Source: Acidobacteriota bacterium (GTDB taxonomy: Bacteria > Acidobacteriota > Vicinamibacteria > Vicinamibacterales > UBA823). From it: a DNA stretch of 64,000 nt. The DNA is taken from NCBI GenBank assembly GCA_002730525.1, contig PCAK01000032.1, positions 1-64,000 on the forward strand. The letters run 5' to 3'. Within the stretch, counting starts at the first letter, position 1; each line of letters begins with the position of its first letter. The notes beneath the pieces were generated by a model. That model did no database searches. It saw only the letters and a list, made by a program, of their open reading frames with translations, and was not told the origin of the DNA. The position numbers and the translations under genes were made by a program. Positions 36,953-60,356 of this stretch are shown here, piece by piece.

Positions 36953-38191
36953 TTACCTGGAATTACTATCCGGGCCCGACCGACCGTTGCCCGCAAATCG
37001 TTCCAAACGCTGCACTACCTGCCCGATGATGGTGTTCGGCGTCGAAGCCCCGGCCGTCAGGCCGACGGCCAGGCGACCGTTTCCGGCGAGCCAGCCATCG
37101 GCGGCGACCTCCTGCTGCCTGCGGGGCAGCGCCACGTTCGACAGCGGCGCGTCGACCGGCCGGTGCCGGATCTCGGTCGGCGAGCAGAGCGATTCGGCGT
37201 CGGCGACGTGAAAGGTCGGTAGATGGGTCGAGCACATGCGCGCCAGGTTCCGGGTGTTGCTGCTGTTGTAGCCGCCGACGACGATCATCAGGTCGAGGCG
37301 CTCTTCGGCGAGAAGGCCCCGAACCGCGTCCTGGCGATCCTGCGTGGCGCTGCAGATCGTGTCGAAGGCCCTGAAGTGACCGTCCAGCGAAGCCTCACCG
37401 TAGCGGTCGATCATCGCCTGGCGGCAGAGTTCGCCGATTTCGAGCGATTCGGACATGAGCATCGTCGTCTGGTTGGCCAGGCCGATCCGCTCGAGGTCGG
37501 TATCGGGGTCGAATCCGTCGGACGCGGTGTTGCCGAACTCGGCGATGAACGCCTCCCGGTCACCGCCCGCCCGCACGTAGCCGCAGACCCGCCGCGCCTG
37601 ATCAAGGTCGAGCACCACCAGAAACCGCCCGGCGGGATACTTCAGCGTCTGCGACGCCGTCGCCCGGGTCTCTTCGTGGTGGACCTTGCCGTGGATGAGT
37701 GCGGTGAAGCCGTCCGAGGCGTATCGCTCGACGTTCTTCCAGACGTTGAGCACCGATCCGCAGGTCGTGTCGATGAGCGTGCAACCGAGGCGATCATATT
37801 CGGCCAACTCCGTGACGGTGACGCCGAAGGCCGGGATGATGATCACGGCGTCTGGTCCCAGCGGCTGACGGGGCTCGTCGGGATCGATCAGAAACCGGAT
37901 CCCCGCCGCGCGGAGTTTCTCGTTGACGTGCGGATTGTGAATGATCTCGCCCGTGAGGTACACCAACTGATCGGGGAACCGCTTGCGAGTCTGGTAGGCG
38001 TAGTCGACCGCGCGATCCACGCCGTAGCAGAACCCGAACTCCTTGGCGAGATGGACGGTGAGTCGGCCCCGGGTCCGTCGGAACCCGTGGCTCGTCATCT
38101 CGTCGACGATGGTGCTGTCGTAGTCGTCCGCCAGAGTGGCGGCGACGGCCTCCTTGAGGTCGAGGCCTTTTCGGAAGATGACGGAGGACAC
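36953..38191 (-). CDS. ispH: 4-hydroxy-3-methylbut-2-enyl diphosphate reductase (long form)
   Basis: A 412-residue IspH (LytB), the last enzyme of the methylerythritol phosphate pathway, which reduces HMBPP to IPP and DMAPP with a 4Fe-4S cluster. The three cluster cysteines are C55 (FGFCYGVDRA), C144 (DTTCGSVLNVW) and C280 (DTICSATQDRQ). The protein is about 100 residues longer than E. coli IspH (316). It belongs to the long type seen in cyanobacteria, plants and several other phyla. The start is a GTG without a clear ribosome binding site, but it is 24 bases from the anti-sigma stop, which suggests co-transcription. Confidence 0.92.
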   Translation of the reverse strand: MSSVIFRKGLDLKEAVAATLADDYDSTIVDEMTSHGFRRTRGRLTVHLAKEFGFCYGVDRAVDYAYQTRKRFPDQLVYLTGEIIHNPHVNEKLRAAGIRFLIDPDEPRQPLGPDAVIIIPAFGVTVTELAEYDRLGCTLIDTTCGSVLNVWKNVERYASDGFTALIHGKVHHEETRATASQTLKYPAGRFLVVLDLDQARRVCGYVRAGGDREAFIAEFGNTASDGFDPDTDLERIGLANQTTMLMSESLEIGELCRQAMIDRYGEASLDGHFRAFDTICSATQDRQDAVRGLLAEERLDLMIVVGGYNSSNTRNLARMCSTHLPTFHVADAESLCSPTEIRHRPVDAPLSNVALPRRQQEVAADGWLAGNGRLAVGLTAGASTPNTIIGQVVQRLERFAGNGRSGPDSNSR

Positions 38192-38215
38192 GTGAATCGA
38201 CGCGGGCTGCGCCGG

Positions 38216-38881
38216 CTATCGGCCCGCGAGCGAGACCTCTTGGATGCGCGGCGTGAGCGCGTCCAACGCGTTGAGCGCCTCGCAGTACTCGGTCGCCAGA
38301 GCGCCGTCGATCTCGGTGAGGATCATCTCGTCGTCGAGCAACCCCTGGGCGCCCCGGAGTGCAACGGCACGTGAGGCGCTCACGAAGGCATCGCCATCCA
38401 TCGTGGCGACGATCGTCTCGGCCGGTCGCGTTCCATCTCCGCGGGTGAAGTCGAGCATCTGGCCGGCGAAGACGCCGACGACCAGGCCCGCGACCATCGC
38501 GGCGGCAAGCCAGCGGTGCTGTTCGAGCGTGCGCGGGACGCTTCGGATCTTGGCAGGGAACCTGAGGACGCGGGCCGGGGCGGCGGAGCCGACGAGCGCG
38601 GCGATTCGACGCGTGATCCGCTGACGCTGCGAGGCCAGGCGCTGCGGCGTCAGCGCGGCGTCAGCATCGCTTCGGGCCACACGCTTCACGTCGCCGAGCA
38701 GAGCCACGAGCTCGTCTCGACGGCGCTGGCAGGGCTCGCACCGGGCCAGATGCTCGGCGGCATCGGCTGACAGGACCATGCCGTCCTCGACCACGCCGAC
38801 GTCCATCGAGCCGAGCATCGCCCACTCGGCCAGCGTGGCGTCGCTGAGATGCCGCCGGTTCTTGAACAGATTCCAAGTCAT
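38216..38881 (-). CDS. Zinc-binding anti-sigma factor
   Basis: A 221-residue transmembrane anti-sigma factor. The ZAS-type zinc motif H-x3-C-x2-C is present as HLARCEPCQRRR, and a single membrane helix (WLAAAMVAGLVVGVFAGQML) follows. The C-terminal domain, predicted periplasmic, would sense the stress. ATG 38881 overlaps the stop of the sigma factor gene by four bases, so it is translationally coupled to it. Binding and release of its cognate sigma factor is the expected function of such pairs. Confidence 0.9.
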   Translation of the reverse strand: MTWNLFKNRRHLSDATLAEWAMLGSMDVGVVEDGMVLSADAAEHLARCEPCQRRRDELVALLGDVKRVARSDADAALTPQRLASQRQRITRRIAALVGSAAPARVLRFPAKIRSVPRTLEQHRWLAAAMVAGLVVGVFAGQMLDFTRGDGTRPAETIVATMDGDAFVSASRAVALRGAQGLLDDEMILTEIDGALATEYCEALNALDALTPRIQEVSLAGR

Positions 38882-39552
38882 GTTCGACTCGCCTCCGTGC
38901 GATCCGCACGACGTTCGATCATCCACCGGTCGCCACCGATGAGCTTCCGCAGCGCGCGGATCGCTCTGAACTGATGGACCCGTACGGTCGATTCGTTGAC
39001 GCCTGTCACTTCACTAATCTCGCGCGCCGTATAGCCTTCGAACACCCCGAGAATCAACACCGTGCGCTGCCGTTCCGGTAGCCACTGGATTGCCGCGGCC
39101 AGATGTTCCCGTCGCTCCCGCGCCAGCAGGACCTCTTCTGGCGTCCGGTCGGCCGATGGTCGACGCTCGGCCAGGTCACGGTCGGACTCACCCGAATCGA
39201 AAATCGGGACCATCCAGCGGCTACGGCGGTTCTGCGCCTTGAGCCGGTCCAGACAGCCGTTGATGACGATCCGTGTGAACCAGACGACGAACGGCAATTC
39301 CTGCCGGAACGACGGCAGGTGCACGAACGCCTTCACGAACGCATCCTGCACCGCCTCGTCGACCTCGGCCACATCGCGCAGATAGTGATACGCGATCCGC
39401 GACGCCCGCCGCTGATGGCTGCCCACCAACTCCTCGAAGCGCTCACGCGCCCGGGCGGTGTCACCCTTGGCGAGCAGAGCCTTGATCTCGCCGGCGGTGA
39501 TGGTATCGCGATCCGTGTCAGCCGATGCTACGGTCGGCGGCTTGTGACTCAT
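38878..39552 (-). CDS. ECF-family RNA polymerase sigma factor
   Basis: A 224-residue sigma factor of the extracytoplasmic function type, SigE/RpoE-like. Region 2 is visible as DEAVQDAFVKAFVHLPSFRQ and FVVWFTRIVINGCLDRLK; region 4 as LPERQRTVLILGVFEGYTAR followed by EISEVTGVNESTVRVHQ and a helix-turn-helix. The linker between them is acidic (DSGESDRDLAERRPSADRTPEE). It starts the operon with its anti-sigma factor. The target promoters are unknown, but the downstream genes ispH, the Spy-like protein and the efflux pump run in the same direction and may belong to its regulon. Confidence 0.94.
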   Translation of the reverse strand: MSHKPPTVASADTDRDTITAGEIKALLAKGDTARARERFEELVGSHQRRASRIAYHYLRDVAEVDEAVQDAFVKAFVHLPSFRQELPFVVWFTRIVINGCLDRLKAQNRRSRWMVPIFDSGESDRDLAERRPSADRTPEEVLLARERREHLAAAIQWLPERQRTVLILGVFEGYTAREISEVTGVNESTVRVHQFRAIRALRKLIGGDRWMIERRADRTEASRT

Positions 39553-39675
39553 AAGTGGTATACGCGCTCCACGCCCAGGCGTTTACTGCGGGTCTGGGGG
39601 CAGCCCGTATCCGCCCATATTACACCGGCGGAGGGGGCACGGCAGCGAGAGGGGGAGAAGGCCGCCGGGCGTCGG

Positions 39676-40737
39676 TCAGGGCGTCGCGGAGCCGGCCCGT
39701 GCGCCGGGCCCGCGGCTCGTCAGGCGCAGCCGCCCCAGATGCTCGAGCCGCGCGCCCGCGTAGTAGTGTCCGAGGATGGCCACGAAGGACTCACCGCGCC
39801 TTGCCCGCGCGATGGCGCCGACCTGGCACAGCCCGACGCCGTGGCCGAAGCCGGTGCCGACGAACGAGAACCGGTTGCCGTCGCGACGAACGTCGAAGCG
39901 CGTGCTCTTGACGGTTCGAGCGCCGAAAGCGGCGGTGAGCACCGCCCGAAGCTCCTCGCCTCGGACCATCGGAGCCCGTTCACCGTCGATCACGACTCGC
40001 GTCGCCCGCCCAGCCACGTCGCGCTCCACCACGTCGATGCGGTCGACGCGGTTGCCGACTCGGGTGCGGGCGTCGCCGTTGAGCGCTTCCCGGAGCTGCT
40101 CAGCCGACAGGTCGAACTGCCAAGGGCGATGCGTGGCCTCCACAGGGTCGGGTACGGCGAGCAGGTAGGGCGGCGTCACGCCCCCCCAGACGATGCCGGC
40201 GTCGCTGGTGTGGCCTCCGCAGTCGGAATGGAACAGCGCCTGAATCGGGCGACCCTCGTACGCCAGGATGACCCCGCGCGTCTCGGCCGCCGCCGCGCGC
40301 GCCATCGACCGGAACCTCTCGGGATAGGCGTCGGGTGGGCGATAGACCTGGCAGTGGGTCTCCGAGCAGAGGTCGAAGCCTTCCCGCGCGTGCCGGCCGA
40401 GATTGGCGACGGCGTAGGTGCGGGCGAGCACGGCCTGCAGCCGGGCCACGTGCGTCGCCGCGACCGCCGGCAACCCGGCCAGCGCCGTCTCGGAGAGGAT
40501 CGATCCGACCACGTAGTCCTCGAGATCGCGGACGACGATCCGATGCCGCCCGTTCTCCGTGACTTGCACCCGCACGACGCGGTCGGGCGGAGCCGGGGTG
40601 GGCCGGGGCGTGGGCGCCACCCGCGGCGGGGGAGTCGTTCCGGAGGCGCAGCCGGCGGCGAGCAGGGCCAGGCCACCGAGGCTCAGCGCAAGCGCCTTGC
40701 GGCGCCAGGACCCGGTCGCATCAGCGGCGCAATTCAT
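39676..40737 (-). CDS. SpoIID/LytB-domain lipoprotein
   Basis: A 353-residue protein with a lipoprotein signal (LLAAGCASG). The SpoIID domain is clear: RVVRVQVTENGRHRIVVRDLE, then YVVGSILSETALAGLPAVA, RTYAVANLGRH, and the motifs ALFHSDCGGHT and VGTGFGHGVGLCQVGA. SpoIID proteins are lytic transglycosylases that cut stem-peptide-free peptidoglycan. The catalytic glutamate expected in the YVVGSILSE block is present. It is divergent from pckA across 182 bases. Confidence 0.9.
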   Translation of the reverse strand: MNCAADATGSWRRKALALSLGGLALLAAGCASGTTPPPRVAPTPRPTPAPPDRVVRVQVTENGRHRIVVRDLEDYVVGSILSETALAGLPAVAATHVARLQAVLARTYAVANLGRHAREGFDLCSETHCQVYRPPDAYPERFRSMARAAAAETRGVILAYEGRPIQALFHSDCGGHTSDAGIVWGGVTPPYLLAVPDPVEATHRPWQFDLSAEQLREALNGDARTRVGNRVDRIDVVERDVAGRATRVVIDGERAPMVRGEELRAVLTAAFGARTVKSTRFDVRRDGNRFSFVGTGFGHGVGLCQVGAIARARRGESFVAILGHYYAGARLEHLGRLRLTSRGPGARAGSATP

Positions 40738-40919
40738 TCGTCGAGGGTATCGGTCGCGGTCGGATCTGAGCTTAGCGCGGGCTACCGGCTCGCCGGTTGA
40801 CTCGCCTGATCGGCACGGCTACGATCACGTGATGTACTCGCGTCGTCCGAGCCCTTCTAGCGACCGTCATTCGATTTCCTTCGTGACTCTCGTCTCTACG
40901 CGTTCGAGGAACATCCGGC

Positions 40920-42515
40920 ATGGCCAATTCGGTTCGACCGGCCCGTGGGCTTGAGGCCCACGGCATCACCGACCCCTCAACCGTCCACTGGAATCTCAGC
41001 ATGCCGGCGCTGGTCGAGCACGCGATCCGGAGGGAGGAAGGGGTCATCGCCGAATCTGGCCCGCTGGTCTGCGAGACGACGCCACACACCGGCCGGTCCC
41101 CACACGACAAGTTCATCGTTCGCGAACCGTCCAGCGCGGACGATGTCTGGTGGGGCTCAGTGAACCGGGCGATCAGTCCGGAGCAGTTCGACCTGTTTCA
41201 TGCGGACCTCGCACGCCACCTCGGCGAGCGGGAGCTGTGGGTGCGCGACGCGTACGCCGGAGCGGATCCGACGTACCGCTTGCCGATCCGCGTGGTGACC
41301 GAGACGGCGTGGCACAGTCTGTTCGCGCATCACATGTTCATCCGCGAGGCCGACCCGGAGCGCCTCGCGACGCATGAGCCGGAGTTCACGGTGCTCAATG
41401 CCCCGTCATTCTCCGCGGATCCCGGCCGCCACGGCACGAACTCGACGACCGCAATCGCGATCCACTTCCAGAAGCGGTTGGTCCTGATAGCCGGAACGGC
41501 CTACGCCGGGGAGATCAAGAAGTCGATCTTCACGGTGATGAACTATCTCCTGCCGCACCGATCGGTGCTGCCGATGCACTGTTCGGCCAACCGCGGAGCT
41601 GACGGTGACGCGGCGTTGTTCTTCGGGTTGTCGGGCACGGGCAAGACGACGCTCTCCAGTGACGTGGAGCGGACGCTGATCGGCGACGACGAGCACGGCT
41701 GGTCGGACGACGGGGTCTTCAATTTCGAAGGCGGTTGCTACGCGAAGCTCATTCGGCTGTCGGCGGAGGCCGAGCCGCAGATCTACGCGACGACCCAACG
41801 GTTCGGCACGCTGCTCGAGAACGTCGTGCTGGACCCGTCGACGCGGCGACTCGATCTCGACGAGGACGCGCTGACCGAGAACACCCGTGGCGCCTATCCG
41901 ATTTCCTACATCGAGAATCACGCCCCATCGGGCCGCGGGGGGCATCCCCGGCACGTCGTCATGCTGACGGCCGACGCATTCGGCGTCCTCCCGCCGATTG
42001 CCCGGCTCACGCCAGCGGGTGCCATGTATCATTTCCTCTCCGGATACACGGCGAAGGTCGCCGGTACCGAGGAGGGTGTCACCGAGCCGGTCGCGGTGTT
42101 CAGCACCTGCTTCGGCGCGCCGTTCATGGTCTGGCACCCCGCCGTCTACGCGAAGCTGCTCGGCGAACGGATTGCCGCTCACGGCGCGACCGTGTGGCTC
42201 GTCAATACGGGATGGACGACCGGCCCGTACGGCATAGGATCGAGGATGTCGATTGCCCATACGCGGGCGATGATCCGAGCCGCGCTGACGGGTGCGCTCG
42301 ATGGCGCCCAGTTCGTGGACGACCCCGTCTTCCGTGTCGCGGTGCCGACGCATTGTCCGGGTGTGCCGGACCAGGTCTTGACGCCGCGCGACACCTGGAG
42401 CCGGCCGAGCGATTACGATGCGTACGCGAGGAAGCTGGCCGCCATGTTCCGCGACAACTTCGACGCGTTCGCCGCGGCCGCCGGTCCGGACGTCGCCGCG
42501 GCCGGGCCGTGCTGA
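40920..42515 (+). CDS. pckA: ATP-dependent phosphoenolpyruvate carboxykinase
   Basis: A 531-residue ATP-type PEPCK, which converts oxaloacetate and ATP to phosphoenolpyruvate, ADP and CO2 in gluconeogenesis. The kinase 1a motif GLSGTGKTT lies at residues 236-244 and the kinase 2 and metal motif LIGDDEHGWSDDGVFN follows. The N-terminal CETTPHTGRSPHDKFIV and RIGDE-type IAFCAGTA-like AGTAYAGEIKKSIFTVMNYLLP are also conserved. The length is normal (about 540). The gene starts with ATG 40920 and is followed by gatB 43 bases downstream in the same direction. Confidence 0.96.
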   Translation: MANSVRPARGLEAHGITDPSTVHWNLSMPALVEHAIRREEGVIAESGPLVCETTPHTGRSPHDKFIVREPSSADDVWWGSVNRAISPEQFDLFHADLARHLGERELWVRDAYAGADPTYRLPIRVVTETAWHSLFAHHMFIREADPERLATHEPEFTVLNAPSFSADPGRHGTNSTTAIAIHFQKRLVLIAGTAYAGEIKKSIFTVMNYLLPHRSVLPMHCSANRGADGDAALFFGLSGTGKTTLSSDVERTLIGDDEHGWSDDGVFNFEGGCYAKLIRLSAEAEPQIYATTQRFGTLLENVVLDPSTRRLDLDEDALTENTRGAYPISYIENHAPSGRGGHPRHVVMLTADAFGVLPPIARLTPAGAMYHFLSGYTAKVAGTEEGVTEPVAVFSTCFGAPFMVWHPAVYAKLLGERIAAHGATVWLVNTGWTTGPYGIGSRMSIAHTRAMIRAALTGALDGAQFVDDPVFRVAVPTHCPGVPDQVLTPRDTWSRPSDYDAYARKLAAMFRDNFDAFAAAAGPDVAAAGPC

Positions 42516-42558
42516 TTCTCCCCGGTGAGACACTGGGCGCGCGAGGGCCTGAAGGCTG

Positions 42559-44001
42559 ATGGAATTCGAACCGGTCATCGGTCTCGAGATTCACGCCCAA
42601 CTGCTGACCCGCACCAAGATCTTCTGCGGGTGCAGCACGCGGTTCGGCGCTCCGGCCAACAGTCACGGCTGTCCGGTCTGCCTCGGTCTGCCCGGAGCCC
42701 TGCCAGTGCTGAATCGTGCCGCGGTCGAACTCGGGATGCGGGCCGCCCTGGCCCTCGGATGCCAGATCGCCGCGACGTCGGTCTTCGCCCGCAAGAACTA
42801 CTTCTATCCGGACCTGCCGAAGGGGTACCAGATCTCTCAGTTCGAGTTGCCGCTCGCGACGGGCGGGCATCTCGCGCTCCCTGGGTCGGGCGTCGAGGTG
42901 GGCCTCACCCGTATCCATCTGGAGGAGGACGCCGGCAAGTCACTCCACGAGGGATTCGCGGATTCCCAGCGGAAGTCCTACGTCGACTTCAATCGGAGTG
43001 GCGTCCCGCTCATCGAGATCGTGACCGAGCCCGACCTGCGCTCGCCGTCGGACGCGAAGTCGTTCTTCACGACGCTGCGGGACATTCTGGTCACGCTGGA
43101 TGTGAACGACGGCAACATGGAGGAGGGGAGCCTTCGGTGCGACGCGAACGTGTCGGTGCGGCCGGCCGGTCAGTCCGCCCTCGGCGTGAAGGCCGAGGTG
43201 AAGAACCTCAACTCCTTCCGATTCCTCGAGCGCGCGCTGGAGCACGAGATCGGCAGGCAGACCGACCTGCTGCGCGCGGGCGACCGGGTCGTCCAGGAGA
43301 CGCGGCTGTGGGACGCCGCGTCCGGCCGCACGGCGGCGATGCGCAGCAAGGAAGAGGCCCACGACTACCGCTACTTTCCCGAGCCCGATCTGCCGCCGCT
43401 GCAGATCGCTCCGCCGTGGATCGACGAGGTCCGGGCGACGCTGCCCGAACTGCCGGCCGAGCGGCGCGCCCGTCTGGTGCGGGACCACGGTCTGACGCGC
43501 GACCAGGCGGAGCAGGTCATGCGCGGTCGGGCCGGGCTGACCGAGTACTTCGAAGAGGTCGTGGCGGCATCTGTTCCTGCCCGGGCGGCCATCAACTGGA
43601 CGCTGGGAGAGGTGACCCGGACGCTGAACGAGGCAGACGACCAGGTCGACGCCTTGCGCCAGCGCGTCCCGCCGGCTGCGCTGGCAGCGCTCGTCGCGCT
43701 GGTCGAGCAGAGCACGATCAGCGGGACCGTCGCCAAGGACGTGTTCGAGCAGATGTATGCCTCGAGGGAATCCGCCGCGACGATCGTGGACCGTGACGGG
43801 CTCGCGCAGATTGACGATGCCGACGCCCTCGAGGTGACGGTGCGCGAGGTGCTGGCGAGCCACGATGATGCCGTGAGCCAGTATCGGGCGGGCAAGCACG
43901 GCGCGCTCGGCTTCCTCGTGGGGCAGATGATGAAGGCGACGCGCGGCAAGGCCAACCCGAAACTGGTCAACGAGCTGCTGCGCAAGGCGATCGATGATTG
44001 A
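42559..44001 (+). CDS. gatB: Asp-tRNA(Asn)/Glu-tRNA(Gln) amidotransferase subunit B
   Basis: A 480-residue GatB, the kinase and tRNA-binding subunit of the GatCAB complex that turns mischarged Glu-tRNA(Gln) into Gln-tRNA(Gln). The N-terminus FEPVIGLEIHAQLLTRTK is the signature. The zinc-binding cysteines are visible in KIFCGCST and HGCPVCLGLPG. The GatB catalytic half continues to about residue 290, and the YqeY-like tail (residues 330-480) contains the tRNA-binding region. gatA and gatC are not in the window, so the operon is split here. Confidence 0.96.
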   Translation: MEFEPVIGLEIHAQLLTRTKIFCGCSTRFGAPANSHGCPVCLGLPGALPVLNRAAVELGMRAALALGCQIAATSVFARKNYFYPDLPKGYQISQFELPLATGGHLALPGSGVEVGLTRIHLEEDAGKSLHEGFADSQRKSYVDFNRSGVPLIEIVTEPDLRSPSDAKSFFTTLRDILVTLDVNDGNMEEGSLRCDANVSVRPAGQSALGVKAEVKNLNSFRFLERALEHEIGRQTDLLRAGDRVVQETRLWDAASGRTAAMRSKEEAHDYRYFPEPDLPPLQIAPPWIDEVRATLPELPAERRARLVRDHGLTRDQAEQVMRGRAGLTEYFEEVVAASVPARAAINWTLGEVTRTLNEADDQVDALRQRVPPAALAALVALVEQSTISGTVAKDVFEQMYASRESAATIVDRDGLAQIDDADALEVTVREVLASHDDAVSQYRAGKHGALGFLVGQMMKATRGKANPKLVNELLRKAIDD

Positions 44002-44267
44002 GCCGAGGCGCGAGCGGCCACTGCAACGTGTCGTCGCCGTAGGTCCGACGCGACGCCTTCACAAACCGTCGCAGCGGGCACTGCTAATGAACGCCTGCGC
44101 GGCCCCAGGCAGTCGACTGGTGTGCGCCTCGGTCGCCAACACCTCGTCCGTGCCGTCCGCTCTTCCTCGGACCCACAGAATATGCAGGGTTTCCGTCTGC
44201 GGATCGTTCGCCACCTGCGCCAAGACGGCAGCGTGGTGGCGGTCGGTGAGGATGCGCCCGCGAAGCT

Positions 44268-44486
44268 CTAGGAGTCCGGTGGTCGAGAGGTCTTCGTGTG
44301 GGGTGATGCCGAGCGCTTGTAGTCCAGGTCGTCGGAGCAGGTGTGCCAGCCGACCGGTCCGCCGTGCTGGCACAACGCCTCGGGCGGCGTCTTCGGCCCG
44401 AGCACTGACGGCCCTGGCTGCGGCGTCGGAGGCTTGGACGTCGGTGTCCGGTCGTCGGGCATAGTGGAACGTGAGTTGTTCTTCAC
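44268..44486 (-). CDS. Small hypothetical protein
   Basis: A possible 72-residue protein. It starts at GTG 44486 with GGAGGGGAG 7 bases upstream, inside the end of the 44487 frame. The sequence is proline- and threonine-rich at first (TPTSKPPTPQPGPSVLGPK) and has two cysteines and histidines (ALCQHGGPVGWHTCS). No family match is known to me. It follows the 44487 frame directly (TAG then GTG), so it could equally be a continuation interrupted by a stop. Confidence 0.35.
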   Translation of the reverse strand: MKNNSRSTMPDDRTPTSKPPTPQPGPSVLGPKTPPEALCQHGGPVGWHTCSDDLDYKRSASPHTKTSRPPDS

Positions 44487-44705
44487 CTACTCGCTCCCCT
44501 CCGTCAGTTCGTCCGCGTTGGTCGGCACCGGGCCGGGCAGGTCGTGCGGGATCTCGACGAGAATCTCCGCGGACAGCGGGAAGTCCGGGATGTCGGGCCA
44601 GGAGGCTTCCATCAGCCAGCCCGCCTTGGTCTGCGGGAAGTTGTGCGGAGATTTCCGTCCAAGCGGGTCGTTCGATTCCACCGGCGACTTCGAGAAGTTG
44701 GGCAT
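44487..44705 (-). CDS. Small hypothetical acidic protein
   Basis: A possible 72-residue protein starting at ATG 44705 with a weak ribosome binding site. Its sequence is well structured for a coding region: PNFSKSPVESNDPLGRKSP, AGWLMEASWPDIPDFPLSA, ending in an acidic tail. It stops at TAG directly before the GTG of the next frame. It has no family match that I recognise. Another, longer open frame overlaps it in the same direction, so the reading is uncertain. Confidence 0.35.
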   Translation of the reverse strand: MPNFSKSPVESNDPLGRKSPHNFPQTKAGWLMEASWPDIPDFPLSAEILVEIPHDLPGPVPTNADELTEGSE

Positions 44706-44800
44706 GTAGTTTCTCTAACGACAGTTCACCTGACTGGTGCCTCTCCCACAAACTCACCGCCTCGCCGGAAAGTTTCGCTTCCGCGCGGTCCCACGCCCTG

Positions 44801-45428
44801 GTCTCGAAGCCCGAAGCGCTCCGCCGGTTCCGCGCGGACTTCGTCGAACTGGCGTCGGTGATCGACGAACTCGACAGCAACCCGCTGCCGGCCTCTTACG
44901 AGGTGCGGCTGCAGTCGGACCCGGCACTCGGGTCGGCGGTCGACGATCTCGCCGACGCGCTGCGGGGCGCGGCCGGGGTCGCCGATGTCCGCTACGATCG
45001 TGAGTTGATCGCGCGGATCTCGATGGCCGTCACCGCGTTGCGCGCCCTCGTCGTGCTCGCGCTGGTCATCGCGGCGGCGCTGACCGTGGCCAACGTCGTC
45101 CGCCTCGCCGGGCACACCCGCCGAGCAGAGCTGGAGATCATGCGACTCGTCGGTGCACCGCTGGCCTACGTGCGGGGGCCGTTCGTCGTCGAGGGGATGC
45201 TGCAGGGCGGGGTCGGAGCGGCGCTGGCGCTCGGGATGCTGTGGGGGGGCGTTCGCGCTGGGCGAGTTCTATTACGGTTCGATGATTGCGACGCTGCTGA
45301 GTGCCACACCGGCGACGTTTCTCCCGATCGAACTGTGTGCCATCTTGCTGGCGGGCGGCTTGGCGGTCGGTTCGGTGGGTGGCATGGTCGGCGCACGGCG
45401 CACGGCTCGGGCCTCGCGCGCGGTTTGA
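44801..45428 (+). pseudogene. ftsX: Cell-division protein FtsX, truncated and frameshifted
   Basis: FtsX homology begins abruptly at about 44801 with LVSKPEALRRFRADFVELA and NPLPASYEVRL, in the extracellular domain. Next come a first visible helix (ALRALVVLALVIAAALTVANVV), the motif GHTRRAELEIMRLVGAP, and then GMLQGGVGAALALGMLWGG. At a run of seven G at 45243-45249 the frame shifts. The remaining C-terminal helices (ATFLPIELCAILLAGGLAVG) and the stop at 45428 continue in a different frame. The N-terminal half, including the first helix and half of the extracellular domain, is missing and replaced by unrelated sequence. An intact copy with ftsE must lie elsewhere if the cell uses FtsEX. Confidence 0.78.
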
Positions 45429-45893
45429 CAGCGCCCGACGGGGGTCCTAGACTGGGAATCACACCTCGGACATGACGAAAAGTCATATGCCATTCGGTCT
45501 TAGCCAGCGGGCGCGCTCGCGGGCTCTCCCCGCGTCGGCTCGAGCGGACTTCTACCGGGAAGAATTCATCAAGCATCAACGCTGCCTCCAGCAGCAGCGC
45601 GAGTACTTTTCAGACGGCGCCATCACGGATGCCGAGACGGCGTTGTCACGAATCCTCGCACAATTGGACCGGCTGTGCTGCAAGGACGACGCCGACGAGG
45701 TCCTCGGCCGGCTGCTGCGGCAGTTCGACTTGGTTACCCGTGTGTCGGCGTCTGCGGATCCACGTAACGTTCACTGACAGATCGCAAACCCGGGGGTGTA
45801 CCGAGTCGCCATCGAGCGTGAGGGCGGAGTGTGTCCGTTCGCATCGGCTCGGTGGTCGACGGCGGCCGTCGCCCGTCTCACGATCACACTGAT
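45429..45893. other. 465-base gap before rnr
   Basis: It contains one possible gene (45472-45777). The rest, on both sides of that frame, shows no other feature I can support. Confidence 0.5.
45472..45777 (+). CDS. Small hypothetical protein
   Basis: A 101-residue possible protein with no known family. It starts at ATG 45472, or at ATG 45487. The predicted helical part YREEFIKHQRCLQQQREYF and ALSRILAQLDRLCCKDDADE is followed by a basic helix VLGRLLRQFDLVTR. No signal peptide is seen and there is no clear ribosome binding site. It sits between the ftsX remnant and rnr, a region with other degraded sequence, so it may itself be a remnant. Confidence 0.4.
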   Translation: MTKSHMPFGLSQRARSRALPASARADFYREEFIKHQRCLQQQREYFSDGAITDAETALSRILAQLDRLCCKDDADEVLGRLLRQFDLVTRVSASADPRNVH

Positions 45894-48155
45894 ATGACAA
45901 CTCTCGACGACCTACTAGAACGTATTCGCACGCGCGTCGACCATCCCGCGACGGTGGCCGAACTTCAACAGGCCCTTCGGATCCCGCGGGATCAGCGGCA
46001 GGGCTTCCAGCGGCGGCTCAAAGCGCTCGTCGCGTCCGGCGCCATGGTGCGTATCCGGGGCAACCGCTACGGGCTGCCCGACAAGATGAACCTGGTGGTG
46101 GGCCGGGTACAGACCAACCCACGCGGGTTCGGTTTCGTGAAGCCCGAGGCGGCGACCGGCGCCGACGAGGACATCTACATTGCCGGGGCCAACCTCAATC
46201 AGGCGATGCACGGCGACCGGGTGGTCACCCGACTGGAACGCCGCGGCCAGGGCGGCCGGACCGAAGGGCGCATCGTCCGGATTCTCGAGCGCCGGGCCGC
46301 GACACTGGTCGGTCGGTACGACACCGACGAGTCCGGCCTCGGTTTCGTCGTGCCGTTCGACCGCCGGATCATCATGGACGTCCACATCCCGGCCAAGGAG
46401 CACGGCACGGCCAAGCGGGGCGACATCGTTGTCGTCGAGCTCACGCGCTGGCCCACCGCGACACGCAACCCGATCGGCCGTGTCACGGAAGTCCTCGGCG
46501 ACCGGGACGCGCCCGGCGTCGACATCGAGATCATCCTGCGCAAGCACGGGATTCCCGACGAGCACGGCGCGGGAGCGGTTCGAGAGGCCGAACAACTCGG
46601 CGCCGAGGTGCGCGACCGCGATCGCCGGGGGCGGACCGACTTTCGCGCGCTGACGACGGTGACGATCGACGGCGAGACCGCCCGCGACTTCGACGATGCG
46701 ATCACGCTCGAACGGCTGCCGAACGGGCATTACTGGCTCGGCGTGCACATTGCCGATGTCTCGCACTACGTGCGGCCCGGCAGTGAACTGGATCGCGAGG
46801 CTCGCGAGCGGGGCACGTCGGTCTACTTCCCGGAGCGGGCGGTGCACATGTTTCCGTCCGCCCTCTCGACCGGGCTCTGCAGTCTCAATCCCCATGTCGA
46901 TCGGCTCGTGCAGTCGTGCCTGATGGAGGTCACCGACCGAGGCAAGGTCGTGCGGCACGAACTGCACGACGGCATCATCCGCAGCGATGCTCGAATGACC
47001 TATACGGAGGTCTCGGCGATTGTGGCCGAGCGCGACGCCGCGATGCGGGAGCAGTATGCCGAGTTGGTCCCGCTGTTCGAGTTGATGCACGACCTGTTCG
47101 AGGTATTGGCCCGCCGCCGCCGCCGCCGTGGCTCGATTGACTTCGATCTGAAGGAGCCCGAGATCGTGCTCGACGACGCCGGGCTGGTCGCCGCCATCAC
47201 GGCGGCCGAGCGGCACGTCGCGCACCGCATCATCGAGGAGTTCATGCTGTTGGCCAACGAGGTCGTGGCGGAGCACCTCGATTCGGCGGAGATGCCGGCG
47301 CTCTACCGGGTGCATGACCCACCCGATTTGACGAAGGTTGCCGAGTTTGAGGAGTTCATCACGACGCTCGGCTACAGCCTTGCGGTTCCCGAAGGGCGGG
47401 TGACCCCGAAGCATTTCCAGCGGCTGGTCGAGCGGATTCGAGGCACGCCGGAGGAGAAGCCGATCGCGTTCCTCATGCTGCGGACGATGCAGAAGGCGCG
47501 GTACGACCCCACCTGCATCGGCCACTTCGGCCTGGCGGCGTCGAGTTACACCCACTTCACGTCGCCCATTCGGCGGTATCCCGACCTCGTCGTCCATCGG
47601 GCGCTGCGGCGCATGCGATCCGGGAAGCTGCCGGTCGCCAAACGCCGAGAGCTGTGCGAGGCGTTGCCCGAACTCGCGACCGGAACCTCCGAGTTGGAGC
47701 GACGGGCCGTAGAGGCCGAGCGCGAGCTGATGCAGTGGAAGAAGGTCAGGTTCATGGCCGACAAGGTCGGCGATGAATTCGAGGGCTACGTCATCGGCGT
47801 CACGTCGTTCGGATTGTTCGTGGAACTGGTCGAGCACTTCGTCGAGGGGCTCGTGCACATTTCGAGCATGGCCGACGACTACTACCGGTTCGTAGAGCGG
47901 GAGCACGTCCTGTTCGGGGAGGCGACCGGGAAGACCTACCGGCTCGGGGATCGGGTTCAGGTGCAGGTCGTCCGCGTCGATTCCGAGCGGCGCCAGGTCG
48001 ATCTGGGTCTCGTCGAGATTCTGGAAGCGGTTCGGGCCTCCGAGCGCAACCGCGGCGCCCGCCGCAGCCGCGTGAAGCCGAAGGCAGAAACGCGAGGGCC
48101 GCGCCCGACCCGCGAGCGTCGCCCGAGCCGCCCGCGGCGCCGGCGCCGGCGCTGA
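45894..48155 (+). CDS. rnr: Ribonuclease R
   Basis: A 753-residue RNase II/RNase R family 3'-5' exoribonuclease. The domain order is an N-terminal winged helix (residues 1-65), two cold-shock domains (to about 220), the RNB catalytic domain with the magnesium-binding aspartates in IDGETARDFDDAITLE (D259-D268), and an S1 domain (GDEFEGYVIGVTSFGLFVEL). The C-terminal tail is strongly basic (RPSRPRRRRRR), as in RNase R of other bacteria. ATG 45894 is chosen because MTTLDDLLERIR begins the winged helix; an upstream start at 45831 adds 21 unlike residues. The selB gene follows after 17 bases. Confidence 0.95.
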   Translation: MTTLDDLLERIRTRVDHPATVAELQQALRIPRDQRQGFQRRLKALVASGAMVRIRGNRYGLPDKMNLVVGRVQTNPRGFGFVKPEAATGADEDIYIAGANLNQAMHGDRVVTRLERRGQGGRTEGRIVRILERRAATLVGRYDTDESGLGFVVPFDRRIIMDVHIPAKEHGTAKRGDIVVVELTRWPTATRNPIGRVTEVLGDRDAPGVDIEIILRKHGIPDEHGAGAVREAEQLGAEVRDRDRRGRTDFRALTTVTIDGETARDFDDAITLERLPNGHYWLGVHIADVSHYVRPGSELDREARERGTSVYFPERAVHMFPSALSTGLCSLNPHVDRLVQSCLMEVTDRGKVVRHELHDGIIRSDARMTYTEVSAIVAERDAAMREQYAELVPLFELMHDLFEVLARRRRRRGSIDFDLKEPEIVLDDAGLVAAITAAERHVAHRIIEEFMLLANEVVAEHLDSAEMPALYRVHDPPDLTKVAEFEEFITTLGYSLAVPEGRVTPKHFQRLVERIRGTPEEKPIAFLMLRTMQKARYDPTCIGHFGLAASSYTHFTSPIRRYPDLVVHRALRRMRSGKLPVAKRRELCEALPELATGTSELERRAVEAERELMQWKKVRFMADKVGDEFEGYVIGVTSFGLFVELVEHFVEGLVHISSMADDYYRFVEREHVLFGEATGKTYRLGDRVQVQVVRVDSERRQVDLGLVEILEAVRASERNRGARRSRVKPKAETRGPRPTRERRPSRPRRRRRR

Positions 48156-48172
48156 CCCCGGTTCACCTTCCC

Positions 48173-50143
48173 ATGAAGACGACGGTCATCGGTACCGCGG
48201 GGCACATCGACCACGGCAAGAGCACGCTCGTGCGCGCGCTGACCGGCACCGACCCCGATCGCTTGAAGGAAGAGAAGGATCGCGGGATCACGATCGACCT
48301 GGGCTTTGCGCACTACGCTCAGCCGGACGGCGCCGTGCTGTCGTTCGTGGATGTGCCCGGACACGAGCGATTCGTCAAGAACATGCTCGCGGGGGTCAGT
48401 GGCATCAACGCAGTCCTCCTCGTCGTGGCGGCCGACGAGTCGGTGATGCCCCAGACGCGCGAGCACTTCGATATCTGTCGGTTGCTCCATGTCGGCCGGG
48501 GCGTCATCGCTCTGACGAAGGCCGATCTGGTCGATGCGGAGACGCTCGAGCTTGCGAAGCTCGAGGTCTCCGAACTGGTGGCCGACTCCTTCCTGGCCGA
48601 CGCGCCGATCGTTCCGGTGTCGGCGGTGGGCGGCGACGGGCTCGACGCACTCAAGTCCGCGCTGGCCGAGGTCACCCGCGACGCGCCCGCGGCGGGCGGT
48701 GCCGGCGCGGTGCGCCTTCCGATCGATCGGGTGTTCTCGATGCGCGGCTTCGGCACCGTGGTCACGGGGACGCTGGCGACTGGACAGTTGAACGTCGATG
48801 GCGAGTTGCTGCTGCTGCCGGCCGGGCGCCGCGTGAAGGTGCGCGGGTTGCAGGTGCACGGTGCGAAGCAGGCGCAGGCCGAGGCGGGCCGGCGGGTCGC
48901 GGTGAATCTCGGGGGTGTCGAGTTGGCGGAGGTCAGTCGTGGCGAGTCGCTCGTCACGCCCGACTGTTTCGAGACGACCCGTCGCTTCGACGGCGTGGTC
49001 GAACTGCTGGCCAGTGCCAAGCCGCTTCGGCACGGCGCACGGGTGCGGTTTCACCATGGCACCAGCGAGGTCCTGGGTCGGGTCGCCGTGTCGGGGCCGG
49101 TCGGCGCCGCGCCCGATTCCGGCTCGGCCGGCCGATCGGTAGCCGACGGCGAGATCACACCGGGGGGAAGCGCCTACGTGCGGGTTCGGCTGGAAGCGCC
49201 GGCGGTGCTGACGCGCGGTGACCGCTACGTCCTGCGGGCCTACTCGCCCTCCATGACCATCGCCGGTGGCGTCGTGCTCGATCCCCAGCCGCCGCGCCTT
49301 GGCGTCCGAACTGTGGGAGGTCGGCGACGGTTCGACCGGCTGAACAGGCCCCCGGAGCTTTCTAGCGTGGACGACCGCTTGCTGGCCGCGGCGCGCGTCG
49401 TCATCGAGGAGCAGGCCGGCCACGGGTTGGAGGTGTCGGCGTTGGTCCGTCGGCTCGGCGCCTCATCCGACGCGCTCGAACGCATCGTCGAGCAGCTCGA
49501 GGCCGACGGCGCAGCGGTGCGAGTCGGGGATCGCCTGGTGGCGCCCGCGGTGCTCGACGCTGGCCGCGACCACTTGCTGGCGGCGCTCTCGACCTACCAC
49601 CGCGACCACCCGCTGTCGGAAGGCTTGCCGCGCGAGGAAGCGCGTGAGCGCCTCTTTCGCCACGCAGACGGCAGCGTCTTCGAGCGCGTGCTGGCAGATC
49701 TGGTCGCCGGCGACCGGATCGCCGCGCGCGGCCACCTCGCGCTGGTCAGCCACCGCGTGTCGCTGTCAGCCGACGAGGAGCGGGCGCGCGACGCGATCGC
49801 CGAGGCGGTGCGTCAGGGCGGCCTGGCCCCACCCGATGCAGCGGGGCTGGCGGCACTGGGGGGCGTCGACGCTGCGGTGGGCAACCGAGTTGTGAAACTG
49901 CTGATCCGCCAGAAAGTGCTCGTGAAGGTGGACGCGCTGGTCTTTCATGCCGAGACGCTGCTGCGCCTCAAGACCGAAGTGTCCGCGTTGAAACCCGAGG
50001 GGAGTGTCGAGCCGGTCCGGGTCGACGTGGGCACGTTCAAGGAGCGCTACGACATCACGCGCAAGTACGCCATTCCGCTACTCGAGTTTCTGGACCGTGA
50101 GCGCGTGACGCGGCGGGTGGGGCAGGGGCGCGTCGTGCTGTGA
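48173..50143 (+). CDS. selB: Selenocysteine-specific translation elongation factor SelB
   Basis: A 656-residue SelB, the EF-Tu-like GTPase that delivers Sec-tRNA(Sec) to in-frame UGA codons. G1 is [12 protein letters not shown], the GTPase switch contains GITIDLGF, G3 is [13 protein letters not shown] and G4 is TKADLVD. After domains 2 and 3, the C-terminal half (from about residue 390) shows the repeated winged-helix layout used to bind the SECIS hairpin ([29 protein letters not shown] at the end, split here by my reading). True selA, selC and selD genes are not in this window; the two exported SelA-like genes are not replacements. Confidence 0.95.
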
Positions 50144-50145
50144 GG

Positions 50146-50298
50146 CTAGTCCTGCGGGTCGTCGCCTTCGCGGGTGGCGTCGCGGAAGTTCCTGATTCCC
50201 CGTCCGATGCCCCGGCCGAGGGCCGGCAGGCGATTGGCACCGAAAATCATCAGGACGATCAGCACGATGACCAGCAGTTCGGCAACGCCAATGCCCAT
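50146..50298 (-). CDS. tatA: Sec-independent protein translocase subunit TatA/E
   Basis: A 50-residue protein too short for most gene callers. It starts with a hydrophobic helix ([20 protein letters not shown]), has the conserved phenylalanine-glycine hinge ([14 protein letters not shown]), and ends in a polar tail ([14 protein letters not shown]). A GGGAG site lies 5 bases upstream of the ATG. This is the TatA/TatE layout, which forms the Tat pore with TatB and TatC. It is convergent with selB, with only 2 bases between the stop codons. Tat export suits the many twin-arginine proteins in this window. Confidence 0.9.
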
Positions 50299-50442
50299 GG
50301 AGGCTCCCTTCGCGACGGTTCGATTCTACCCCGGCTTTTGCCAATCCACGCGCGGAGGCGGTAGACTGCAAGAAAGACGCGGCGCGCCGGACTGAACCGC
50401 TTCGGAGCGTGTCGGCGTGTGGCCGGAGGTTGAGACGGACTC

Positions 50443-50895
50443 ATGTTAGAAGACGATCGCTACACCGTTGGCGTGTTCGAAGATGTCGGCGCCGCGGAGC
50501 GTGTGCTGGCCGCCCTCGCGGCGAAAGAGTTTCCTTCTGACTCGCTGAGCGTGGTCGCCGCCGACGCGCCTGCGGTATCGGCGCTCCTGGAAAAGACCTT
50601 CGGCGACGATGGCGCGACGCTCGACGTGCGCGCCGTCGGCGTGCTCAGGCTGCGTGGATCGATCGTGGACGCGCTACAGGGCGGCGAGGGTGCGCTCGCC
50701 GCGACGGGCATCGCCGCCACGATGAAGCGGGTTGGGTTCCAGGCCCACGACGGCTACATCTACGAAACGCTGACCATGCGGGGTGGCGTGCTCGTCGCCA
50801 TCCGGAGCGAGCCGCGGGCGGCAGATGCGCTCGCGCTGCTGCATGCCTACGGTGGCGGCAACGCCGCAATCGGCGCGTGGACCGGCAGGGTCTGA
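50443..50895 (+). CDS. General-stress-protein 17M-like domain protein
   Basis: A 150-residue protein whose N-terminal half (YTVGVFEDVGAAERVLAALAA, then DSLSVVAADAPAV) resembles the general stress protein 17M/YflT domain, a small alpha/beta module. The second half repeats the pattern less clearly (YETLTMRGGVLVAIRSEPRAADALALL). It has a glycine-rich segment between the two. There is no signal peptide. It may act in stress response or as a regulatory domain; the function is not known. Confidence 0.7.
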   Translation: MLEDDRYTVGVFEDVGAAERVLAALAAKEFPSDSLSVVAADAPAVSALLEKTFGDDGATLDVRAVGVLRLRGSIVDALQGGEGALAATGIAATMKRVGFQAHDGYIYETLTMRGGVLVAIRSEPRAADALALLHAYGGGNAAIGAWTGRV

Positions 50896-51052
50896 CGAGG
50901 CTGGACGCGACCAGAATCGGCAACACGGCGTCCTAAGGAGCATGAGGCGGAATCGGGTCCGGTCGTGGTCCGGGTCGGCGCGGATCGACGATTGAGACTG
51001 AGCGGGCAACTGGTATGGCGCGGAAAGCCGGCATCGGCAGTGGAAGGCGTCG

Positions 51053-52000
51053 GTGACGGCGCGGCTGGTTTCACTCTGGAAGATCGTGTTGGCCGCGTTG
51101 GCGCCCGACCCCGGGACGGCCGCGCCCCACACCTCGCTCCGGTCCGACGACGGTCCACCCGTTCCGATCTTCGGGGCCTCCACACATCCTCAGCGGTTCA
51201 GCCGAGCCTTCGGCGTGTCGGTCGGGAGCCACGTCGCGATCTTCGTGATCGCTGGCTTCATCGCCGCGATGCTGGACGCGCGGCGCGAGACCCCGTTCCT
51301 GCCCGATCTCAGAAGCTTCGACATCGTCTGGGTCCCGATGGAGGGGCCGGGCGGGGGCGGTGGCGGCGGCGGCAACGAGATGCCCGCGCCGCCCCGACAG
51401 GTCGAACTGGAAGGGCCCGACGACACGTCGGTGCCGGTCAGCGCACCGCCCGAACTGGAAGATCCGGAGGTGGAGGACGAGCCGCCTGACGAACCCGAAC
51501 AGGAGATGAACATTCCGGCTCGAACGCTGGCGTCGTCGAACCAGACACTCCCCGGCGTGATGCAGGGGCTGCCGGTCGCGCAGGCGATGTCGCTCTCGCA
51601 GGGGCTGGGCATCGGCGGCGGCGGTGGGACCGGTGAAGGGACGGGGATCGGTCCGGGGACCGGCGCGGGCCTCGGGCCCGGTGAAGGCGGTGGGGCCGGC
51701 GGGGGCGTCTACCGCCCCGGTGCCGGCATCGTTCTGCCGCGACCGATTCGAGAGGTCAAGCCGCAGTACACTGCCGATGCGATGCGGGCCAAGGTGCAGG
51801 GCTCGGTCTGGATCGAGGCCGTCGTCACGCCGGAAGGCACGGTCGGCGACGTGCGCGTGACGAAGTCACTGGACCGCGTCTTCGGTCTCGACGAGGAGGC
51901 GATGCGGGCGGCGCGTCAGTGGCGCTTCGTCCCCGGCACGCGATTCGGCCAGCCGGTGGCGGTGCTGGTCGTGATCGAATTGACGTTCACGCTGCGCTGA
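51053..52000 (+). CDS. TonB-family energy-transducing protein
   Basis: A 315-residue TonB-like protein. It has a cytoplasmic N-terminus of about 55 residues, one membrane helix (VGSHVAIFVIAGFIAAML), a long Gly/Pro/Glu-rich periplasmic spacer (residues 100-215), and a C-terminal TonB domain (REVKPQYTADAMRAKVQGSVWIEAVV, then FGLDEEAMRAARQWRFVPG). The C-terminus couples the proton gradient to outer-membrane receptors. The glycine-rich spacer is unlike the Pro-Lys spacer of E. coli TonB. GTG 51053 is the start. No exbB or exbD is nearby. A two-way terminator follows at 52026. Confidence 0.9.
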   Translation: MTARLVSLWKIVLAALAPDPGTAAPHTSLRSDDGPPVPIFGASTHPQRFSRAFGVSVGSHVAIFVIAGFIAAMLDARRETPFLPDLRSFDIVWVPMEGPGGGGGGGGNEMPAPPRQVELEGPDDTSVPVSAPPELEDPEVEDEPPDEPEQEMNIPARTLASSNQTLPGVMQGLPVAQAMSLSQGLGIGGGGGTGEGTGIGPGTGAGLGPGEGGGAGGGVYRPGAGIVLPRPIREVKPQYTADAMRAKVQGSVWIEAVVTPEGTVGDVRVTKSLDRVFGLDEEAMRAARQWRFVPGTRFGQPVAVLVVIELTFTLR

Positions 52001-52025
52001 GCGCCGGCGCGCGTCGGTACAAGAA

Positions 52026-52064
52026 AAAGGCCTGACGGGCGATCGCCCGCCAGGCCTTTGTTGT
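52026..52064. terminator. Bidirectional terminator between tonB and groEL
   Basis: A long perfect stem is formed by AAAGGCCTG (52026-52034) and CAGGCCTTT (52051-52059), with a second inner stem CGGGCGATCGCCCG between them. T and A runs flank both sides, so it can stop transcription from both directions. The adjacent genes are convergent. Confidence 0.8.
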
Positions 52065-52092
52065 CTATTGAGCCTGGAAGCAGGATTCGGAC

Positions 52093-52127
52093 GTAGGGCG
52101 GGGCTTCAGCCCCGCCATGCGACCTAC
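52093..52127. repeat. REP-like palindrome downstream of groEL
   Basis: GGCGGGGCT (52097-52105) and AGCCCCGCC (52108-52116) form a 9-bp stem with a 2-base loop. An outer arm, GTAGG (52093-52097) with CCTAC (52123-52127), is added by a bulge. The sequence resembles intergenic palindromes that recur in high-GC genomes. Only one copy is seen in this window, so repeat status is inferred from its shape. Confidence 0.5.
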
Positions 52128-52146
52128 GGCTTCCGGCCGTCGGTCC

Positions 52147-54160
<2,014 letters not shown>

Positions 54161-54229
54161 GGCCTCAACTCCACTCTCCCGAATTAGTTATGAGATAGAA
54201 CGTTCCGGGGATCCGGACGCCACGGACTG

Positions 54230-54256
54230 CTAGCAGTCAGCCCGGGCAGCTGCTAA
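54230..54256 (-). promoter_or_regulatory. Degenerate CIRCE-like operator upstream of groES
   Basis: CTAGCAGTC and AGCTGCTAA are separated by exactly 9 bases (54239-54247), the spacing of the CIRCE operator TTAGCACTC-N9-GAGTGCTAA bound by the heat-shock repressor HrcA. Thirteen of 18 arm positions match. The outer TAGCA and TGCTAA bases are kept and the inner GC differs. The position, about 70-95 bases before the groES start, is right. It may be a diverged HrcA site. Confidence 0.5.
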
Positions 54257-54297
54257 TTATGGTGCTGGTGGCAGGTGATGTCAAGCCTGCCGCGGGT

Positions 54298-54555
54298 TCA
54301 GGCGGCCGACTTCGGTGTGCGGGGGCGACGCGCGCCGCGAGCCTTGAGCGGCGCCCGCGTGATCCGGTAGGCGATGATCTTGCGGCTCAGGGTGTTCCGG
54401 TGGATGCCGAGCAGGTCCGCCGCGCGACTCAGGCTGCCTTTTGACCGCGCCAGCGCGCCGGTGATGAAGCGGCGCTCGAACTCCTGGCGCGCCTCTTCGT
54501 AGAGGATGCCTTTCTCGAGCATCTCCCCGATCAATCGGTCGAGTCGTTCACGCAC
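54298..54555 (-). CDS. Fis-type helix-turn-helix protein
   Basis: An 85-residue protein whose central part has the Fis/NtrC C-terminal helix-turn-helix (ALARSKGSLSRAADLLGIHR, then NTLSRKIIAYRIT). The N-terminal helices resemble Fis dimerisation helices. The C-terminus is basic (KARGARRPRTPKS), which would help DNA binding. It starts at GTG 54555. It is shorter than Fis of E. coli (98) and lies between groES and purC, 38 bases downstream of purC in the same direction. The regulatory targets are unknown. Confidence 0.8.
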   Translation of the reverse strand: MRERLDRLIGEMLEKGILYEEARQEFERRFITGALARSKGSLSRAADLLGIHRNTLSRKIIAYRITRAPLKARGARRPRTPKSAA

Positions 54556-54593
54556 GTCTCAGGCTCTTCCCTCGCGCCCCGGCCCGGGGCTGC

Positions 54594-55523
54594 TCAGCCC
54601 AGGTCGCGGCCGCTCAGGGCCCGCAGGGCTTCGATGTACTTCTCGCGGGTGCGGGCCACGACCTTCTCGGGCAGCGAGGGCACCGGCGGCTGCTTGTTCC
54701 AGCTGATCTTCTCGAGATAGTCGCGGACGAACTGCTTGTCGAAGCTGGGTTGTGGCCCGCCCGGTCGGTACTCCGACTTGGGCCAGAAGCGTGAGGAATC
54801 CGGCGTCAGGGCCTCGTCGATCAGGATCACGTTCTGCGCCCCGTCGGATTCCACCAGGCCGAACTCGAACTTGGTATCGGCGACGATGATGCCGCGAGTC
54901 TCCGCGTGTGCCGCACCGAACGCGTAGAGCGCCATCGTGATGTCGCGCAGTGTCGCGATCAGATCCTGGCCGACTAGGCGCCCGGCCTCGGCCTCGCTGA
55001 TGTTGATGTCGTGTCCCGAGTCGGCTTTCGTCGCCGGTGTGAAGATCGGCTCGGGCAGTCGGTCCGACTCCTTTAGTCCGGCGGGCAGCGGCACACCGCA
55101 GACGGCGCCGGTCTGCTGGTAGTCCTTCCAGCCCGAGCCCGAGAGATACCCGCGGGCGACGCACTCGACCAGCACCGGCGCTGTCTTGCGCACCAGCATC
55201 GAGCGCCCCCGGAGTAACTCCGCGTGCGGCCGCAGAACGTCCGGGTAGTCTTCGGGCGTCGTGGAAATCAGATGATTCGGGACGATGTCGCCTGTCTGCC
55301 CGAACCAGAAGGCCGACAACTGGGTCAGCACCTTGCCCTTGTCGGGAATGGCCGAGCCGAGTACGAAATCGAACGCCGAGATCCGGTCGGTCGTCACCAT
55401 CAGCAACGCCTCGCCCACGTCGTACATGTCGCGGACTTTTCCGCGACCGTGTACGGCGATGCCGGGCAGCGCGGTTTCCAGCACCGCGTCCGTTGAGCTG
55501 GGTCCTGAAGGCGTGGATGACAT
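54594..55523 (-). CDS. purC: Phosphoribosylaminoimidazole-succinocarboxamide synthase
   Basis: A 309-residue SAICAR synthase of purine biosynthesis, joining CAIR and aspartate with ATP. The ATP-site motif GRGKVRDMYDVGEALLMVTTDRISAFD (split here: GRGKVRDMYDVGE, then LLMVTTDRISAFD) and the substrate loop RGYLSGSGWKDYQQTG are conserved. Further family blocks are TPATKADSGHDINIS, FEFG followed by ILIDEALTPDSSRFW, and KQFVRDYLE. The ATG at 55523 is preferred to an upstream ATG at 55553. The protein is longer than E. coli PurC (237) and matches the longer fungal and actinobacterial form. Confidence 0.95.
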   Translation of the reverse strand: MSSTPSGPSSTDAVLETALPGIAVHGRGKVRDMYDVGEALLMVTTDRISAFDFVLGSAIPDKGKVLTQLSAFWFGQTGDIVPNHLISTTPEDYPDVLRPHAELLRGRSMLVRKTAPVLVECVARGYLSGSGWKDYQQTGAVCGVPLPAGLKESDRLPEPIFTPATKADSGHDINISEAEAGRLVGQDLIATLRDITMALYAFGAAHAETRGIIVADTKFEFGLVESDGAQNVILIDEALTPDSSRFWPKSEYRPGGPQPSFDKQFVRDYLEKISWNKQPPVPSLPEKVVARTREKYIEALRALSGRDLG

Positions 55524-55807
55524 TCGTGTCGACCTCTGCTGAAAGGAGCCCAAGCTTACTGACGATCGTCCATCGCGGCAAGACCGAAAATGTTGCGGTG
55601 TGCCGCCCGGGTCGTCCGCCCGACGCGTCGGTTCAGCGCTGAGCGATCGCCGACCCGTCGAGCGTCGTCACGGTGCGTCGCCGGCGCATGCCACGGCGTC
55701 GATGCGACGCGATAACTGTCTGGCTTCCATAGATCTGGCGAGGTGGGTATAGTAGCTGCCGTCGGCACGCCGATCCGCGGTGCGTGTGTGCCCGCGAGCC
55801 GTTCTCG

Positions 55808-57324: not shown

Positions 57325-57383
57325 CCGATGCCGAGGGGCGAAAGCGCTACGCGGGGGCGCGAACCGACTGATACACTGAGCCG

Positions 57384-57977: not shown

Positions 57978-58006
57978 CGCGAGACGGCGCCGCCGTCACG
58001 TAGAGC

Positions 58007-60322: not shown

Positions 60323-60356
60323 CCCGGTGCAGGGTGCGGTCTTCGCCTAGCGATTC

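Follow-up and report, generated by a model that had tools for sequence, protein, structure and literature searches.

Probable recent inactivation of ftsEX by local DNA replacement at a locus from which the gene pair is repeatedly absent in related Acidobacteriota

Main finding

The ftsEX gene pair of an acidobacterial draft genome has, in our judgement, very probably been inactivated recently: 758 bp of unrelated DNA now occupy the place of ftsE and of about the first 84 codons of ftsX, which a replacement removed, and what is seen is an ordinary pseudogene caught early. The window, as we call the whole analysed stretch of 64,000 nucleotides, comes from C32, a 204-kb contig in the 45-contig assembly of genome G000, which totals 3.31 Mb and is 99.2% complete. 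Within its group, the window is apparently one of several separate losses of ftsEX. An earlier sequence-only reading of this DNA overlooked the loss of ftsE at the locus, the repeated absence of ftsEX in relatives and the conserved promoter-like site of the downstream genes.

Organization of the locus

In the same-genus sister genome G001 (Acidobacteria bacterium UBA2161, DCWN01000040.1), the genes are arranged as gatB–ftsE–ftsX–p101–rnr–selB, with an intact FtsE of 235 aa and an intact FtsX of 301 aa encoded at the position that the remnant occupies in the window (loci L039/L118). The window reads gatB, unrelated DNA, the rest of ftsX, p101, rnr (which we take to be of the RNase R type) and selB; the features are listed in Table 1.

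Table 1. Features of the ftsEX locus in the window
Feature	Position	Strand	Basis or remark
gatB, intact, left neighbour	42559–44001	+	matched in 56/60 genomes of the set of relatives, G000 among them
Short intergenic stretch past the gatB stop, still alignable to G001	44002–44023	+	blastn to L039
Unrelated DNA replacing ftsE and 5' ftsX	44024–44781	.	758 bp; some minus-strand codon bias
72-aa minus-strand open frame, the best within the insert	44487–44705	-	same frame continues at 44486–44268 after one TAG
ftsX remnant without start: later outer domain and C-terminal membrane domain	44782–45428	+	PF18075, PF02687
Seven-G run where the remnant frame changes	45243–45249	+	G001 frame open here
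Sigma-70-type promoter-like site, overlapping the ftsX stop codon	45425–45453	+	TTGACA-17-TAGACT
p101, conserved small protein between ftsX and rnr	45472–45777	+	alignment with 12 relatives
rnr, intact right neighbour	45831–48155	+	open frame; orthologs in same order in relatives

On the left side, gatB is 91% identical to its G001 counterpart over codons 1–461, and the blastn alignment to L039 stops shortly after the gene, at 44023; none of the following 758 bp can be aligned to G001. The sequence-only reading had described an insert of about 800 bases at 44002–44800 that truncates ftsX. Its view that the start of the gene is replaced by unrelated DNA holds, but its span does not: comparison with a close relative, the step it had proposed for defining the boundary, confines the unrelated stretch to 44024–44781. 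The corresponding G001 sequence of about 1064 bp, which holds the complete ftsE gene and ftsX up to about codon 84, is gone from the window. Because the whole of ftsE is missing as well, the event is better described as a replacement than as a simple insertion into ftsX.

As a separate observation, the G001 assembly itself is interrupted within the final gatB codons (contigs C34/C25; L105 base 1, L039 base 8120), the two contigs overlapping by 23 bases. This break lies about 107 bp away from the G001 counterpart of the left replacement edge in the window. Perhaps the site varies in the G001 population too.

Further to the right, nearly all 250-base bins at 46250–57900 of the window are 98.8–100% identical to G001, while the flanking bins at 38000–46250 and 58000–64000 are only 81–95% identical. 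Lower-identity bins occur inside the block at ~50750–51500, and a 162-base length difference lies at its right edge. The block looks as if it had been exchanged recently between the two species, or as if one of the two assemblies were chimeric.

The remaining ftsX is very probably a pseudogene

The extracellular-domain profile FtsX_ECD (PF18075) covers the remnant at profile positions 29–96 of 96 only, beginning at base 44783 (positions 30–96 in a second search). Homology had been placed in mid-domain from 44801; the mid-domain start is correct, and the position moves to 44783. The permease model PF02687 matches at positions 2–68 of 120, after which the frame breaks in the seven-G run, just where a frame change had been claimed. 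Over 207 codons the remnant shares 92% amino-acid identity with G001 FtsX and is, at one place, 9 bases shorter in frame. For G001 FtsX codons 1 to ~84, which comprise the start, the cytoplasmic N-terminus and the first transmembrane helix, no counterpart is present in the window. The remnant thus lacks what a functional FtsX would have: the start with the first helix, a complete PF18075, a complete PF02687 in one frame, and the partner FtsE. With an intact ortholog at the same place in G001, no start, a broken frame and ftsE gone, the suggestion of a pseudogene is supported, and a sequencing error in the G run, if real, would leave this verdict unchanged.

Phase variation had also been offered, in which slippage in the G run would turn FtsX on and off. 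A run of seven G does sit at the frame change; a switch, however, needs an otherwise whole gene, and here neither frame encodes a whole protein, since the gene sets in within the outer domain, past its former start and first membrane helix, and FtsE is lacking too. We regard this explanation as unsupported and extremely improbable.

The further proposal of a second, intact copy was not supported by the genome searches. The FtsX_ECD profile found the remnant as its sole match in G000. No protein of this genome exceeds 46% identity to G001 FtsE, the best-scoring match reaching 45%, against yardsticks of 71% and 100% in two positive controls and 63–93% in intact loci of relatives. Twenty-eight further matches fell to the broad FtsX permease family; none of them has a match to the extracellular domain, and they were taken as other transporter proteins. 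In a genome that is 99.2% complete, the searches thus found neither a second FtsX extracellular domain nor an FtsE ortholog.

Age of the break

Compared with G001 ftsX over 207 codons, the remnant carries 45 synonymous and 17 nonsynonymous differences, a dN/dS of 0.129; the neighbouring genes gave 0.146 (gatB, 461 codons) and 0.102 (p101). Against the 17 observed, a remnant that evolved without selection along its entire branch should show about 64–69 nonsynonymous changes. In a crude Poisson calculation with baselines of 0.10–0.15, a count of 17 or fewer becomes unlikely (~7% at most) if selection has been lifted for 20% of the branch; with a baseline of 0.05, the same improbability is reached at 30% of the branch. 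The relaxed-selection test gave a dN/dS that is not raised and is compatible with a break within the last ~20–30% of the branch or less. Since the remnant keeps the dN/dS of an intact gene, the break would be recent, dating back at most ~20–30% of the time since the split from G001.

The replacing DNA

The 758-bp insert has a G+C content of 65%, compared with 68% for the window, and is single-copy in its own genome, where a search returned only the insert itself and eight matches of 32–35 bits (~20–30 bases, E 0.1–0.7). Among 396 genomes of the phylum, with two candidates per genome scored in the rows listed, 18 had a match, its own included; the others were scattered and at most 57 bases long. 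Plasmids yielded two 44-base matches that were not convincing, and phages none. Two stretches of the insert frames gave pattern matches in viral contigs, none of which was confirmed, and no match of the 72-aa frame to genome contigs was confirmed. At the protein level, a search of 198 relatives returned the own genome and five weak matches (29–42% identical, E 9e-4 to 0.009), and tblastn of the six insert frames against the other loci compared gave none at E 0.01. In Pfam, NCBIfam, PHROGs and PADLOC, the 72-aa frame had no family at E 1, and the insert frames reached only E 0.015 and 0.28; Rfam gave no match. No transposase, phage or plasmid gene was recognised in the insert, nor were further copies in the genome. 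One of the matches among the phylum genomes, L098, falls within a gene that by eye resembles a tRNA synthetase, and was set aside as chance. At the edges, no repeat pair flanking both sides was seen; a 13-base direct repeat (12/13) has one copy across the right edge (44776–44788) and the other inside ftsX (44825–44837).

The minus strand bears some coding signal: the best 60-codon open stretch has a codon score of 0.27, above 300 of 300 shuffles, and an open frame runs from 44705 to 44487. This would fit an insert that brought a new minus-strand gene as the selected feature, with the loss of ftsEX as a by-product. The score, however, lies below those of four native gene segments (0.36–0.46), the coding signal moves from one frame to another and is interrupted by a TAG, and no homologs or families were found in the collections searched. 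A selected new gene is very unlikely; the insert may instead be a scrap of some gene without known relatives.

ftsEX is repeatedly absent in relatives

Within the family, gatB adjoins p101 without an ftsE or ftsX match in all six members with a readable locus (G002, G003, G004, G005, G006 and G008); in G007, which is 61% complete, there was no gatB match. To the wider group belong 108 relatives confirmed in a scan of the genome collection by p101 alignment, of which the best 80 loci were analysed. With L159 too short upstream to judge, 79 loci remained: 59 keep ftsX (counted by presence of the gene), 18 are without it and two hold relics. The ftsE gene is in view in 57 of the 59 ftsX-keeping loci, and in L137 and L146 the contig ends first. 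Seventeen of the ftsX-less loci have gatB 97–300 bp before p101, and the eighteenth, L176, has a large unrelated open frame between these genes. As to the relics, in L192 (3413–3892) about the first 31 ftsE codons run in frame into later ftsX, giving an open frame of 159 codons, and in L189 (3036–3720) ftsE codons 1–78 stand beside ftsX from about codon 128 in a different frame.

In the genomes of the 20 loci without intact ftsEX, whose completeness is not given, no FtsX_ECD was found, nor was a full FtsE ortholog, identity being at most 49% among the matches listed (E 1e-30 or better). Both searches detected the two positive controls that keep ftsEX, L118 and L195. Across the relatives set, FtsX_ECD was present in 40 of 60 genomes, the window remnant included, and several of the 20 without the domain are incomplete; the compared genomes are mostly metagenome assemblies.

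A quick GatB tree was built from 57 rows (the window, L118 and 55 loci), leaving out the 24 of 80 loci with fewer than 300 aligned GatB residues, none of them a loss. On this tree the ftsEX trait changes six times, with at least four changes forced by starred branches; shuffled labels gave a mean of 17.2 changes, and 0 of 500 shuffles had as few as six. Long branches were seen for L133, L134 and L186. The number of changes alone does not separate loss from gain; loss is favoured because the pair has a fixed place and because three relics exist (the window, L189 and L192). In the window family, the window and G001 form one pair beside four rows without ftsEX, which implies at least two losses in the family, unless G001 regained the pair.

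These data also bear on a possible assembly artefact, in which a wrong join between gatB and ftsX entered the contig while an intact ftsEX present in the cell was not binned. The genome is a 45-contig draft, the insert has no match in anything searched, amino-acid changes in the remnant are not in excess, just as would be the case in a whole but misassembled gene, and the G001 contig also breaks close to the matching junction. Yet the join lies inside a 204-kb contig, no contig of the nearly complete genome carries an ftsE ortholog, and a real loss is unsurprising given how many relatives have an empty locus or a relic at this position. An assembly error is thus possible but rather unlikely, and less likely than a real loss; it would mean no break at all, where a real loss would mean a recent one.

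Downstream genes

The p101 protein of the window (101 aa) is 47–80% identical to those of 12 relatives and matches no family in Pfam or NCBIfam. Among the family members examined, p101 neighbours rnr, and it is kept when ftsEX is lost. The promoter-like site at the end of ftsX was found once, against 0.2 expected in shuffles. Applying the criteria of at least 5/6 and at least 9/12 letters, a spacing of 16–19 and a position within 130 bp before p101, we located such a site in 74 of 80 loci versus 0.8% of base-shuffled sequences; it occurs in 19 of the 20 loci without intact ftsEX and in 55 of the 60 others (L159 counted among the latter). Judging by this conservation, p101 and rnr are probably transcribed from a promoter of their own, in which case losing ftsEX would not necessarily silence them.

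Discussion

In many bacteria, FtsEX links the cutting of the cell wall to division. We propose that in this group ftsEX became dispensable, was lost repeatedly and was recently lost here by replacement. A deletion with replacement would have taken out ftsE with the region upstream of it and ~84 codons from the beginning of ftsX, leaving unrelated DNA, and the surviving ftsX tail would be a relic whose frame also broke at the G run. The loss may have been one event, after which the cell presumably lives without FtsEX, so that the system seems dispensable in the window lineage. The putative promoter of p101 and rnr could be part of the reason why the loss is tolerated.

More tentatively, and at a confidence that falls short of a preferred reading, daughter-cell separation in this order of Acidobacteriota, probably the Vicinamibacterales, might be independent of FtsEX, with another signal controlling the wall hydrolases; ftsEX would then be a self-contained, promoter-insulated module that is lost repeatedly, and the window a snapshot soon after a loss. 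Counts of Peptidase_M23 are equal in G000 and G001, with five in each. Ten loci were chosen for holding an M23 protein of about 430 aa, three from genomes with the full FtsX domain (G001, G016 and G045) and seven from genomes without it, including G000; the proteins are related to each other and, by eye, do not resemble EnvC.

A literature search of titles and abstract openings found no paper on ftsEX loss in Acidobacteriota. Taken singly, the locus is an ordinary, recently broken gene pair; its interest is mild and lies in the repeated loss to which it belongs. With the pair intact, broken or gone at one fixed place among relatives, this repeated loss offers a natural series for asking what replaces FtsEX.

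Set against the FtsX of FtsEX systems (PF18075 with PF02687), the remnant is alike in being an ortholog of G001 FtsX, at the same place and with both domains recognisable; it differs in its broken frame, in having no partner FtsE and in the missing front part, which comprises the start, the first membrane helix and outer-domain positions 1–28 of 96. The relics of L189 (isolate M_DeepCast_65m_m2_224) and L192 (isolate SAT150) resemble the window in having a broken ftsEX between gatB and p101 and no FtsX_ECD elsewhere. Theirs, however, are internal deletions that join the start of ftsE to later ftsX, and no foreign insert was seen there. Dispensability of FtsEX is described for E. coli (PMC7668044); that case concerns a laboratory deletion in a phylum other than Acidobacteriota.
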